From assembly GCA_035606695.1 (NCBI GenBank), contig DATNEW010000043.1, positions 1-64,000 on the forward strand: a stretch of 64,000 nucleotides of DNA. The letters run 5' to 3'. The notes beneath the pieces are model-generated. The model did not search any database. It had not been told where the DNA came from and was given only the letters and a program-made list of their open reading frames with translations. Below are positions 5,289-61,251 of the stretch, piece after piece. Each line of letters starts with the position of its first letter. The first letter of the stretch is position 1. Position numbers and translations under genes: made by a program. Source of the stretch: Gemmatimonadaceae bacterium (lineage in GTDB: Bacteria; Gemmatimonadota; Gemmatimonadetes; Gemmatimonadales; Gemmatimonadaceae).

Positions 5289-5322
5289 AAAAAAGGGGAG
5301 GCCGTCAGGCCTCCCCTTTTTT
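5289..5322 (+). terminator. Rho-independent terminator, perfect 15-bp stem
   Basis: AAAAAAGGGGAGGCC (5289-5303) and GGCCTCCCCTTTTTT (5308-5322) pair perfectly around GTCA. The A/T ends make it able to work in both directions. Confidence 0.95.
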
Positions 5323-54657: not shown

Positions 54658-55035
54658 GTGCAATCAGCGGAGCATGGCCACGTGACACAGCGGGTGTTGG
54701 CGAGACAAACGGCAATGACGATCGGAGTGGTGCTCGTGGTCGGAGCATTGCTGTCGCTCGCGTTCCGCAGTCCCGGCGACGCGGCCGCGATCTGGCTCAG
54801 CGGGCTGATCGCGGTTGCCGTGCAGTTCGCCGCCTTTGGCCTGAGCGGCATCGCCGGCCGAGGAAACCTGATGGCGCGCCTGGGCAGCGGCGCGCTGATT
54901 CGGCTGTTCGCTCTGGTGATCTATTCGCTGATCGTCGTGCTTGCGCTCAAGCTGCCGGCGGTCCCGGCGCTCGTCAGTCTCGCGACGTTCTTTTTCTTCT
55001 CGACGTTGATCGAACCTTTGTTGATCAAATCATGA
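54658..55035 (+). CDS. atpI: AtpI-like ATP synthase subunit
   Basis: 125 residues. Four hydrophobic segments (MTIGVVLVVGALLSLAF, AIWLSGLIAVAVQFAAFG, IRLFALVIYSLIVVLAL and ALVSLATFFFFSTLIEPLLI), as in AtpI assembly factors for the c-ring. GTG start directly after the previous stop. It overlaps atpB by 4 bases (ATGA). Confidence 0.78.
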   Translation: MQSAEHGHVTQRVLARQTAMTIGVVLVVGALLSLAFRSPGDAAAIWLSGLIAVAVQFAAFGLSGIAGRGNLMARLGSGALIRLFALVIYSLIVVLALKLPAVPALVSLATFFFFSTLIEPLLIKS

Positions 55036-55991
55036 TCTTCCGTTCCCGTATTGCTGCTTTGCTCGTCGCCGCGGGCCTGATGGCCGCGCCGGCGGCCGCT
55101 CACGCGCAGGATGCCGCCGCGCAGGTTCAGAAAACTGAAAGCGTGCCGGGCCCCGCGCAGATCATCATGCCGCACATCACGGACTCGAAGAAGATCGATT
55201 ATCCGTGCGTGCGCGGACTGCGCGAGTGGGCGTGCGAGGGCGAGTTTCCGCCCATTCGCTTCACCGTGGCCGGGCACCAGATCGATCTCAGCATCACGAA
55301 GCACGTCTTCTTCCTGTTCGTCGCCGGCGTGTTCAGCCTCGTGTTGCTGCTGAGTGTGGCGTCGTCGCATCGCCGGCATTCGTCGGAATCCGGACGGCCG
55401 AAGGGGTTCGCGGCCGGCATGGAAGCCGTGATCCTCTATTTGAGAAATGAGATTTACATGCCGGTCCTCGGGCACGGCGGCGCCAAGTTCGTGCCGTTCT
55501 GCCTGACGCTGTTTTTCTTCATCGCGTGGTGCAACCTGCTCGGCCTCATGCCGTGGGGATCGACGCCGACGGGCAACGCCAACGTCACGGTCACGCTGGC
55601 CATGATCACGTTCTTCGTCGTCGAGATCGCCGGTATGCGTGCGCTCGGCAAGGGCTACATCGGCACGCTGATCTACTGGCCGCACGACATGCCGTTCATC
55701 ATGAAGGCGCTGATGACGCCGATCATGACGCCGATCGAGATCGTCGGAAAGATCACGAAGCCGTTCGCGCTCACGGTGCGTCTCTTCGCGAACATGATTT
55801 CGGGCCACGTCATCATTCTCGCGCTGATCGGCCTCGTGTTCATGTTCGGCGTGAAGACGAGCTTCATTGCGCCGATCGGCATGGCGATCGGCATCATGCT
55901 GCTCGAGATCCTCGTCGCGTTCATTCAGGCGTTCATTTTCTCGCTGCTGGCCGCGGTGTTCATCGGGCAGATTCGGACGGCGCATCATTGA
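55032..55991 (+). CDS. atpB: ATP synthase F0 subunit a
   Basis: 319 residues. Forms the proton half-channels against the c-ring. The N-terminus is a signal-like segment (AALLVAAGLMAAPAAAHAQ) with a 60-residue extension, followed by five to six helices. The essential Arg is in FALTVRLFANMISGHV. The last helix ends FIGQIRTAHH. A perfect 16-bp hairpin spans the stop codon, beginning a structured region before atpE. Confidence 0.96.
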   Translation: MIFRSRIAALLVAAGLMAAPAAAHAQDAAAQVQKTESVPGPAQIIMPHITDSKKIDYPCVRGLREWACEGEFPPIRFTVAGHQIDLSITKHVFFLFVAGVFSLVLLLSVASSHRRHSSESGRPKGFAAGMEAVILYLRNEIYMPVLGHGGAKFVPFCLTLFFFIAWCNLLGLMPWGSTPTGNANVTVTLAMITFFVVEIAGMRALGKGYIGTLIYWPHDMPFIMKALMTPIMTPIEIVGKITKPFALTVRLFANMISGHVIILALIGLVFMFGVKTSFIAPIGMAIGIMLLEILVAFIQAFIFSLLAAVFIGQIRTAHH

Positions 55992-56173
55992 TTCGCTTTG
56001 CGAATCAATGATGCGTCTCATGTGAAGCGCGCGGGGCCCCGGCCCCACGCGGCACACTCCGAGAGGAGTGGATGGTTTGCAAGACCGGCTCGTCGTCGCT
56101 CCAGGCGAGCCGGACCCAGTAACCAGGCGAATGCCTGGTGATGTTCGCTGAGCCCCGGGGCTCGTTGGCGAAC
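55981..56173 (+). promoter_or_regulatory. Structured intercistronic region of six hairpins between atpB and atpE
   Basis: Hairpins in order: 55981-56015 (16-bp perfect stem, TTT loop, over the atpB stop); 56030-56051 (GGGGCC/GGCCCC core); 56055-56070 (CACTCC-GAGA-GGAGTG, a GNRA-type loop); 56085-56113 (CCGGCTCG/CGAGCCGG, 13-base loop); 56122-56139 (ACCAGGC-GAAT-GCCTGGT); 56143-56173 (GTTCGC/GCGAAC enclosing GAGCCCC/GGGGCTC). None has a T-run, so it is likely an RNA processing, stability or translation-control element, or an RNA gene, rather than a terminator. Confidence 0.6.
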
Positions 56174-56240
56174 GGCGTCCTTTGCAGGTCGATCGGCGCG
56201 GAGCACTGAAGTTCACGTTGCAATTCTTTGGAGAACCATC

Positions 56241-56516
56241 ATGACGATTCTTCCTCTCTTGCAGGCCGCTGCCGCCTACACCAAGGAGTACACGGGTGCG
56301 TGGGCGATGCAGGGTGCCGGCATTGGCGCCGGTCTCGCGTCGATCGGCGCCGGACTCGGCATCGGCCGCATCGGGGCGGGCGCGACTGAAGGCATGGCGC
56401 GTCAGCCCGAGATCGCGGGCACCATCCAGACGGGCGCGCTGATTCTGTCGGCGCTCATCGAAGGCGTCGCGCTGTTCGCCGTCGTCGTCTGTCTGCTGAT
56501 CTGGACCAAATTCTAG
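56241..56516 (+). CDS. atpE: ATP synthase F0 subunit c
   Basis: 91 residues. Two helices: GAGIGAGLASIGAGLGIGRI with the Gly-rich packing motif, a polar RQPE loop (EGMARQPEIAGTIQTG) and LILSALIEGVALFAVVV with the ion-binding Glu. Gly rather than Ser/Thr follows that Glu, which argues for protons, not sodium. TTTGGAGA about 8 bases before the ATG gives strong initiation, fitting the high c-subunit stoichiometry. Confidence 0.97.
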   Translation: MTILPLLQAAAAYTKEYTGAWAMQGAGIGAGLASIGAGLGIGRIGAGATEGMARQPEIAGTIQTGALILSALIEGVALFAVVVCLLIWTKF

Positions 56517-56525
56517 TTCGTGCAC

Positions 56526-56553
56526 GGTGAGGCGGTCCCGGGACCGTCTCACC
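56526..56553 (+). promoter_or_regulatory. Hairpin between atpE and atpF
   Basis: GGTGAGGCGGTCCC and GGGACCGTCTCACC pair over 14 positions with one G-T. There is no T-run. Confidence 0.5.
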
Positions 56554-56580
56554 GTCTCCCACATGATTTCGAGATTTCTC

Positions 56581-57165: not shown

Positions 57166-57707
57166 TGCGCGAAACCACGATCGCCCGGAACTACGCCGAG
57201 GCGCTCCTCGAGCTCGCCCGGAGCGCGAACGACCTGCGCGGCTGGGGCGAGATGATCGACAGCGTGGCGAACGGCATCGAGTCCGATCGCCGCCTGCGCG
57301 TGTTCCTCGAGTCGCCGCGCGTGAGCGCGCAGCAGAAGAACGAGATCTTCCAGAAAGCGTACGGCAACTCGCTGCCGCGAAACTTCGTGCGCTTCCTGCA
57401 AGCGCTCGTGAACAACCGGCGTCAGATGCTGATCCCGGTGATTGCTCACGAGTATCACGATCTCGTCGACCAGGTCGAAGGCCGCCTGCACGCGTCCGTC
57501 ACGGTCGCGCGTGAAGCGGACGACAACGACCGCCACGTCATCACGCAGCAGCTCTCGCGCGCGCTGGGCAAGGATGTCGTGCCGCACTTCCACGTGAATC
57601 CGTCGATCCTCGGCGGCGTCGTGGTCCGCGTGGGTGATACGGTGCTCGACGGCTCCGTGCGTCGCCGGTTGTCGACCCTTCGTTCGAAAATGCTCGGGAC
57701 GCGCTAG
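57165..57707 (+). CDS. atpH: ATP synthase F1 subunit delta
   Basis: 180 residues. NYAEALLELARSANDL and the C-terminal HVNPSILGGVVVRVGDTVLD with GSVRRRLSTLR match OSCP/delta. It caps the F1 head and binds subunit b. It should be followed by atpA, but the next gene is vapC on the other strand, and the two stop codons share CTAG. The catalytic subunits must therefore be encoded elsewhere. Confidence 0.95.
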   Translation: MRETTIARNYAEALLELARSANDLRGWGEMIDSVANGIESDRRLRVFLESPRVSAQQKNEIFQKAYGNSLPRNFVRFLQALVNNRRQMLIPVIAHEYHDLVDQVEGRLHASVTVAREADDNDRHVITQQLSRALGKDVVPHFHVNPSILGGVVVRVGDTVLDGSVRRRLSTLRSKMLGTR

Positions 57708-58069
57708 CTCGCCCGGTAGGAGATCGAAAACCCTTCGGCCACGCGCGCCATTCGCTGATCGAGCGTCCACAGTCGCGCGCGGCCGAGCAGGCAGCCGGCG
57801 AGAATCTGCGCGTCGGTCCAGCCGATGCCGCGGCCCATGAGCTTTCTCCGATCGATGAGGTGCATCACCTCGTCGAATGACGCGACCGGAACACGCGGCA
57901 GCGCCGCCAACAGATTGAGGACGTGCGCGCGGTGTTTGAGCCCCCCGCACGCGAGCTCGCCGACGACGCAGTCGTGGACCGCGATCACGCCGTCGTCGAG
58001 GCGCCGACCGAACGGCTCGTAGCCGCGACGCAGATGATCGATCCAGACCGACGTGTCGGCGACGATCAC
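57704..58069 (-). CDS. vapC: PIN-domain toxin VapC
   Basis: 121 residues. Acidic active site: Asp in VADTSVWIDHL, Glu in VVGELACGG, and Asp in GIGWTDAQILAG and LWTLDQRM. A ribonuclease toxin expected to cleave tRNA or rRNA. It overlaps the antitoxin by 4 bases. Its stop codon shares CTAG with the atpH stop. Confidence 0.93.
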   Translation of the reverse strand: MIVADTSVWIDHLRRGYEPFGRRLDDGVIAVHDCVVGELACGGLKHRAHVLNLLAALPRVPVASFDEVMHLIDRRKLMGRGIGWTDAQILAGCLLGRARLWTLDQRMARVAEGFSISYRAS

Positions 58070-58278
58070 CTGCGCGGCTCGGCCACCGCGGCCACTCTGC
58101 GGCGCGGGATGTCCTCGAGATCCGGGTCGGACCCGCCCAGCGCCGCCAGGCGCCGCGCGCTTTCGCGCGCGATGAGGGCGCGCAGCCCGTCGTGTACGAG
58201 CGCCGTCTTCTCGGTAATCCCGGTCAGCGTGGACGCCTTCGCGACCAGCTCATCGTCTAGAATCATGGTGGTCCTCAT
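58066..58278 (-). CDS. vapB: Antitoxin VapB (type II)
   Basis: 70 residues starting MRTTMILDDELVAKASTLTG, then ITEKTALVHDGLRALI, a ribbon-helix-helix DNA-binding domain followed by a C-terminal toxin-binding tail (DLEDIPRRR). The start at 58278 is chosen over the upstream ATG codons, which lie in the operator repeats. Confidence 0.9.
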   Translation of the reverse strand: MRTTMILDDELVAKASTLTGITEKTALVHDGLRALIARESARRLAALGGSDPDLEDIPRRRVAAVAEPRR

Positions 58279-58309
58279 GCATATGAATATGCACGCAAGA
58301 TGCATATGA
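58277..58309. promoter_or_regulatory. Likely VapB operator repeats
   Basis: ATGCATATGA occurs twice (58277-58286 and 58300-58309). GCATAT-GA-ATATGC (58279-58292) is a palindrome. The sites overlap the vapB start, as expected for autoregulation. Confidence 0.6.
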
Positions 58310-58481
58310 CGCAAGGTGCTACGGTACAGTGCGGTCGTGGCGCCGACTGGCCATCACCGAATTCGTGCGAGGCTGACCGATCCCGCGCGCGCCAACGCCG
58401 GTTCCACCAATACCGTATACCTAGATTGAAGCAATCCCCACCAATCCGTACCTCGCAGCCCCCAAAAAAGTGGAGTCTCGC

Positions 58482-61203: not shown

Positions 61204-61251
61204 GCAAACAACGCGGCCCGTGAGGTAGATCTCACGGGCCGCGTTGTTTGC
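61204..61251. terminator. Bidirectional terminator, perfect 21-bp stem
   Basis: The arms 61204-61224 and 61231-61251 pair perfectly over 21 positions around GTAGAT, between convergent genes. The outer AAACAA/TTGTTT ends serve both directions. Confidence 0.85.

Follow-up and report, generated by a model that had tools for sequence, protein, structure and literature searches.

A conserved pseudoknotted RNA between atpB and atpE in Gemmatimonadota: a candidate cis-acting leader of the ATP synthase subunit c gene

Main finding

Between the genes for subunits a and c of ATP synthase (atpB and atpE), a Gemmatimonadaceae genome of 5.9 Mb in 50 contigs carries a genuine RNA structure, encoded on the atp strand and usually present as a single copy, tied to the atpB–atpE spacer and spaced to the atpE start. 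Three hairpins (56085-56173 of the window, the 64,000-nucleotide stretch of DNA analysed here), an extra helix and a pseudoknot strand reaching to 56204 form this one conserved RNA. Judged by its sequence and that of its relatives, it is a new RNA family, absent from Rfam 15. The reading that we prefer, and to which we give a probability of roughly 0.55, is that 56085-56204 acts in cis as a leader of atpE inside the polycistronic atp mRNA.

The locus and its six hairpins

The locus comprises genes for an ATPase_gene1 (AtpZ-like) protein and an unassigned small membrane protein, together with atpB, atpE, atpF and atpH. The atpB stop codon lies at 55989-55991 and the atpE ATG at 56241, leaving a spacer of 249 nt (55992-56240); across 30 relatives from the same family, this spacer measures 125-268 nt. 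The features outside the conserved RNA are as follows.

55032-55991, + strand: atpB, ATP synthase subunit a (Pfam PF00119, E 1.3e-49)
55981-56015, + strand: H1, a perfect 16-bp hairpin containing the atpB stop codon; lineage-specific and outside the conserved RNA
56028-56070, + strand: H2 (about 56028-56051) and H3 (56055-56070, GAGA loop); lineage-specific
56230-56233, + strand: Shine–Dalgarno sequence of atpE, GGAG, read from the sequence
56241-56516, + strand: atpE, ATP synthase subunit c (Pfam PF00137, E 4.3e-15)
56524-56555, + strand: strong hairpin just 3' of the atpE stop (8 nt after it), with no T-run; same position in most family members

A Shine–Dalgarno-like core is found upstream of atpE in 84 of 99 relatives. 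The F0, b and delta genes end with atpH, after which come VapBC-like genes on the opposite strand (57704-58314, a call made by eye); an F1 alpha/beta-type subunit is found on a separate contig (G000:C9:159306-159680), so the ATP synthase genes of this genome are split.

A preliminary description of the window had drawn six consecutive hairpins in the spacer at 55981-56173 (H1 to H6 here), and all six are present. Its count of five essentially perfect stems was too generous: H1, H3 and H5 are perfect in Watson–Crick terms, whereas H2 is interrupted by mismatches, H4 contains a G-U pair and has a loop of 9 nt, and H6 combines a U-G pair with a 3-nt bulge. It was right that none of the hairpins is followed by a T-run, there being neither a T-run nor a terminator-like site in the region.

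Taken as a whole, the region is unusually stable (MFE z = -4.7 for 55960-56200), and three strictly perfect hairpins in 193 nt are reached by only 7 of 1000 dinucleotide shuffles – albeit also by 55 of 3191 windows of the GC-rich 64 kb, windows over this very spot included. The excess stability lies mostly in H1–H3 (z = -6.5); H4–H6 together with the extra helix (P3, below) score only -2.0, so it is conservation that makes the case for that part. Comparison with relatives divides the spacer in two: its 3' half is the same RNA in every one of the 30 family relatives, while its 5' half differs in nearly every one of them. The six hairpins are thus two different things and not one array. The test of stem conservation in close relatives that the preliminary description had proposed turns out strongly positive for H4, H5 and H6 and negative for H1, H2 and H3, which are replaced by other sequence or missing even within the genus.

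Architecture of the conserved RNA

The conserved unit extends past 56173, where the array of hairpins had been thought to end, to 56204, and is built from the following elements.

56085-56113, + strand: P0 hairpin (= H4), arms 56085-56094 and 56104-56113, 9-nt loop GUCGCUCCA
56098-56102, + strand: 5' strand of pseudoknot PK1, GCUCC, lying in the loop of P0; 88% paired cells among 74 sequences, and own-versus-swapped test
56119-56121, + strand: GUA linker, invariant in 93 of 93 aligned sequences
56122-56139, + strand: P1 hairpin (= H5), 7 bp with loop GAAU; 99.4% of cells paired, double changes in six of seven pairs
56143-56173, + strand: P2 hairpin (= H6), 7 bp, a 3-nt bulge on the 3' side and 5 bp; 98% of cells paired, double changes in 10 of 12 pairs
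56175-56199, + strand: P3 helix, 56175-56179 with 56195-56199, unseen in the preliminary description; 90% of cells paired, double changes in four of five pairs
56200-56204, + strand: 3' strand of PK1, GGAGC, pairing with GCUCC at 56098-56102; from pairing tests

P0 stems exceed shuffled sequences in strength across 124 relatives. P1 is followed by an unpaired A that, like the GUA linker, is invariant (93 of 93 aligned sequences), and GAU separates P1 from P2. The invariant unpaired GUA and A suggest a defined three-dimensional fold or a bound partner. Beside the bulge of P2, a conserved U-G pair lies next to an almost invariant G-C pair. A kink-turn was looked for in P2, but the tandem G-A pairs are absent after the 3-nt bulge, their place being taken by U-G and U-A pairs.

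Covariation and strand

Two alignments of the window's family (f1) were examined: one of 17 hand-trimmed sequences, and one of 74 sequences aligned by covariance model. In both, all five covariation measures lie above every one of 500 shuffles. Among the 74 sequences – an alignment that, being fitted to the model, favours helices P1–P3 – 95.4% of cells are paired, and 330 cells are double-changed compared with 102 expected; sliding the structure by 1-3 columns lowers pairing from 95% to 29-47%. At individual pairs, as many as six of the standard pair types occur. The structure also emerges from a plain MAFFT alignment of the sister family (f2), folded without any imposed structure, which independently recovers P1 and P2; 13 of the 18 pairs show double changes there. 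The covariation check proposed for the spacer has therefore come out in favour of H4, H5 and H6, which are P0, P1 and P2 of one heavily covarying RNA.

The U-G pair beside the P2 bulge is kept in 68 of 74 family sequences and in 17 of 19 from the sister family. Since a wobble pair is meaningless in DNA, and would read A-C on the other strand, the working molecule is the RNA of the atp sense strand. A palindrome acting at the DNA level, as a protein site, is disfavoured by this conserved U-G pair and by the many G-U exchanges.

Pseudoknots

PK1 was left out of the covariance model. In the aligned f1 columns, 88% of its cells pair, a percentage that clearly beats shuffles (1 of 500 reaches it), while the other covariation measures beat them weakly, indicating modest covariation. 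An alignment-free comparison in fixed windows, in which the P0-loop region of each copy was paired with its own tail or with swapped tails, gave 15.54 for own tails against 14.54 +/- 0.27 for swapped ones in f1, above all 300 swaps, and 17.26 against 15.43 +/- 0.53 in f2 (3.5 SD); in a looser first search across the whole tail, the signal had been diluted. The two strands change together, from GCUCC/GGAGC to GCUUC/GAAGC (L006), CUCCC/GGGAG (L017), UGCAUCC/GGAUGCA (L045), GCGUCC/GGACGC (L089) and UUGCGCUC/GAGCGCAA (L051).

The sister family probably has a second pseudoknot (PK2), to judge from complementarity. Its P3 bears an additional hairpin with the loop GGGAGA, which could pair with a UCUCCC lying about 30 nt upstream of the atpE start codon; this potential is present in most f2 copies and has covaried in a handful of them (GGAAGA/UCUUCC, GGGAGAAU/AUUCUCCC). 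The swap comparison gives 16.2 against 16.0 +/- 0.45 for PK2 in f2, where nearly all copies share the same letters.

Distribution and genomic context

A covariance model that finds the f1 copies (R1) matches 97 of 105 good-quality genomes of the family, nearly always once per genome, and 115 of 286 good-quality genomes of the phylum. A second model, trained on f2 only (R2), finds the copy in the window with an E value of 3.5e-7, and adds many f2 genomes together with a few at class level (f4). Every confident match lies between atpB and atpE, or, at contig edges, beside atpE only. Among the R1 loci examined, both genes flank the element at 109; another three, of which two come from a single genome, are truncated by the end of a contig and retain atpE only; of the R2 loci examined, 45 of 45 are at atpE, and atpB is seen as well at 44. 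Weak R1 matches in f3 (another family of the same order), f5 and f6 (L105, L106 and L108) have no atpB or atpE nearby and were dismissed as chance. A degenerate DNA pattern, which recovers about a third of the known copies, was also run over 84,980 species: it gave 57 matches, all 57 adjoining atpB or atpE. Their labels are Gemmatimonadota or a near synonym, except in three bins: two bacterial ones without a label and one, L196, assigned to 'Kuenenia'.

On its contig, the last of these, recorded as Candidatus Kuenenia stuttgartiensis, has the element and atpE together with an atpB that matches Gemmatimonadota, and it is probably a mislabelled bin. In one genome (G072), two contigs (L061 and L109) both have the element and atp genes, in versions that differ slightly in sequence, at atpB–atpE-like loci; either the bin is a strain mixture or there is a real second atp cluster. 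An origin as a repeat or mobile element was rejected, as the window's own genome matches only the element itself and the models find about one copy per genome.

Within the spacer, the element keeps its distance from one gene only. From P2 to the atpE ATG, the median is 62 nt (SD 7 nt) in f1 and 94 nt (SD 9) in f2, whereas the interval to the atpB stop varies widely (SD 44 nt in f1 and 41 in f2). This combination of tight spacing to the atpE start and loose spacing to the atpB stop means that the element belongs to atpE and not to the end of atpB.

The position also bears on a separate trans-acting small RNA encoded in the spacer, which the preliminary description had offered as one option. The spacer is long and the fold stable, as such an RNA would have it; however, the element always lies directly 5' of atpE, on the same strand and at a fixed distance, and no sigma-70-like promoter was found, nor any terminator (GC-rich stem plus T-run) in 55900-56300. 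This option is not favoured, and we regard it as very improbable. As to the control at the mRNA level that had been suggested alongside it, what the strand, the location and the constant distance from the atpE start bear out is an RNA-level role on atpE.

A proposed leader of atpE

A single operon has to supply every F-type ATP synthase with many more copies of c than of a, the c-ring requiring about 8-17 c per single a. To our knowledge, how bacteria set this c:a ratio is understood in detail in a few models only. We propose that the leader RNA would raise or set the yield of subunit c compared with that of subunit a, and that control would be post-transcriptional, probably through message stability, ribosome access or both. 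A compact fold just upstream of the ribosome-binding site could shield the atpE message from nucleases and keep the ribosome-binding region out of upstream pairing; in f1, the opposite end of the message would be guarded by the strong hairpin that directly follows atpE. Reviews describe precedents: an atpE leader stabilises messages in bacilli (PMC3997798), and hairpins in the puf operon set the stability of its segments (PMC7509114, PMC3997798). It is these precedents, together with the fixed spacing to atpE, that lead us to commit to a cis-acting leader that would set subunit-c output.

The hairpin after atpE is present in 76 of 94 family members, against 2% of shuffles and 15 of 94 coding controls; in relatives, it often has a CCCGGG centre. 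In the sister family, only 2 of 24 members have it, which excludes protection from both sides as the general function. Nor would an RNA that simply stabilises the message need invariant unpaired bases or pseudoknots. Also to be counted against the leader reading is f3, a family of the same order that manages without the element: in L041-L044, L046, L047 and L050, it is absent, and the atpB–atpE spacers are 30-40 nt long.

The main rival is a regulated switch, in which the same RNA would bind a small ligand or a protein and thereby alter the translation or stability of atpE, as a riboswitch or autoregulatory leader does. The complex fold, the invariant unpaired GUA and A (93 of 93), the conserved bulge and at least one pseudoknot – with the probable second one in the sister family (GGGAGA loop and UCUCCC some 30 nt before the ATG) – amount to the kind of conservation that is typical of recognition sites. 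Yet the element is found at one gene only, in mid-operon and in one phylum, whereas most ligand-binding classes occur at several genes, and the simplest form of switch, pairing of the P0 loop or UCUCCC with the Shine–Dalgarno sequence, shows no co-evolution. On this sequence evidence, we hold a switch to be possible, but tentatively so. Sequestration of the Shine–Dalgarno sequence by the P0 loop (CUCC) or by the f2 UCUCCC was rejected, own pairings equalling swapped ones (11.5 versus 11.6; 10.7 versus 11.0). A shade more doubtful is the specific idea of an RNA sensor, whether riboswitch or protein-bound leader, that would tune ATP synthase assembly via subunit c alone; its cue would relate to the energy state of the cell or to the assembly of the c-ring, and the sensor, if real, would be conserved across a bacterial class.

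A location between cistrons, a compact pseudoknotted fold and invariant unpaired bases would also suit a self-cleaving ribozyme, or a fixed endonuclease processing site, separating the atpB from the atpE mRNA, as would the hairpins that some genomes have at the end of atpB and most of the family at the end of atpE. No Rfam ribozyme family, however, appears in the relatives at E up to 1, and none that is credible appears in the window; we think this reading improbable.

Relation to known RNAs

The window contains no Rfam 15 match above its gathering score, the weaker matches falling far below theirs, as do the rejected Ysr276 and microRNA matches; nothing lies over the core in sets of 14 and 15 relatives at E up to 1. 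In the literature covered, no previous account of the element turned up, although one may exist in the motif papers of 2007 and 2017, beyond the reach of an Rfam scan.

By position, the nearest known thing is the ATPC RNA motif (RF01067), a conserved RNA structure between the subunit a and c genes of marine cyanobacteria and likewise a structured RNA inside an ATP synthase operon; we know of no function for it. The element differs from it in phylum and in its mismatch to the covariance model, the best score, 18.7 bits against a cut-off of 45, falling elsewhere in the element's own genome. The initiation region of Escherichia coli atpE (uncE) shares with the element the principle of a sequence 5' of atpE that gives the c subunit high expression. 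That region is short, unstructured and U-rich, while the element folds over about 120 nt and includes a pseudoknot. Pseudoknotted riboswitches and ribosomal-protein leaders resemble it as complex, conserved cis leaders directly before the regulated gene, but alternative pairing with the Shine–Dalgarno sequence is unsupported here. The puf operon of Rhodobacter capsulatus also has intercistronic hairpins in an energy-metabolism operon whose segments differ in stability (PMC7509114, PMC3997798); these are simple stems, whereas the element has conserved unpaired bases and a pseudoknot, and it is the hairpin at 56524-56555 that is the more puf-like of the two.

With a class-wide conserved RNA sitting precisely in the gap from the subunit a gene to the subunit c gene, the ratio question becomes directly testable in Gemmatimonadota, a common soil phylum whose RNA biology is little known. 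A covariance model is ready for this family, which is missing from Rfam release 15.

The variable 5' half of the spacer

H1–H3 (55981-56070) are not conserved. Hairpins like H1 over the atpB stop occur in a few relatives (L004, L012, L069 and L141), and the 5' half holds, depending on the genome, a perfect palindrome spanning the atpB stop (L004, L012), a long hairpin made of short repeats (L008, L026) or nothing. H1–H3 very probably belong to the 3' end of atpB, as gene-end hairpins or as palindromes born of repeats, unconnected to the conserved element: they are not maintained in the genus, relatives have other perfect palindromes or low-complexity inverted repeats in their place, and comparable hairpins follow other genes of the window. 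Somewhat at odds with this, a hairpin over the atpB stop is kept at the same spot in a minority of relatives, 13 of 81 tested scoring at least 25 where shuffle averages never do, and it may have a weak selected role in protecting the 3' end.

Positions 55992-56080 of the window and the same half in L006, L007, L008, L026 and L121 are hypervariable, often with inverted short repeats; in such halves, repeat units such as AGGACGGT and GTGAGTC fold into long hairpins. Elsewhere in the window, a perfect 21-bp inverted repeat with a 6-nt loop (61204-61251) lies shortly 3' of an S9-peptidase-like ORF (end 61172) and overlaps the start of the end region of a convergent gene. A perfect 15-bp hairpin followed by a T-run at 5289-5322 is a typical intrinsic terminator, in contrast to the hairpins of the atp genes, which have no T-run.
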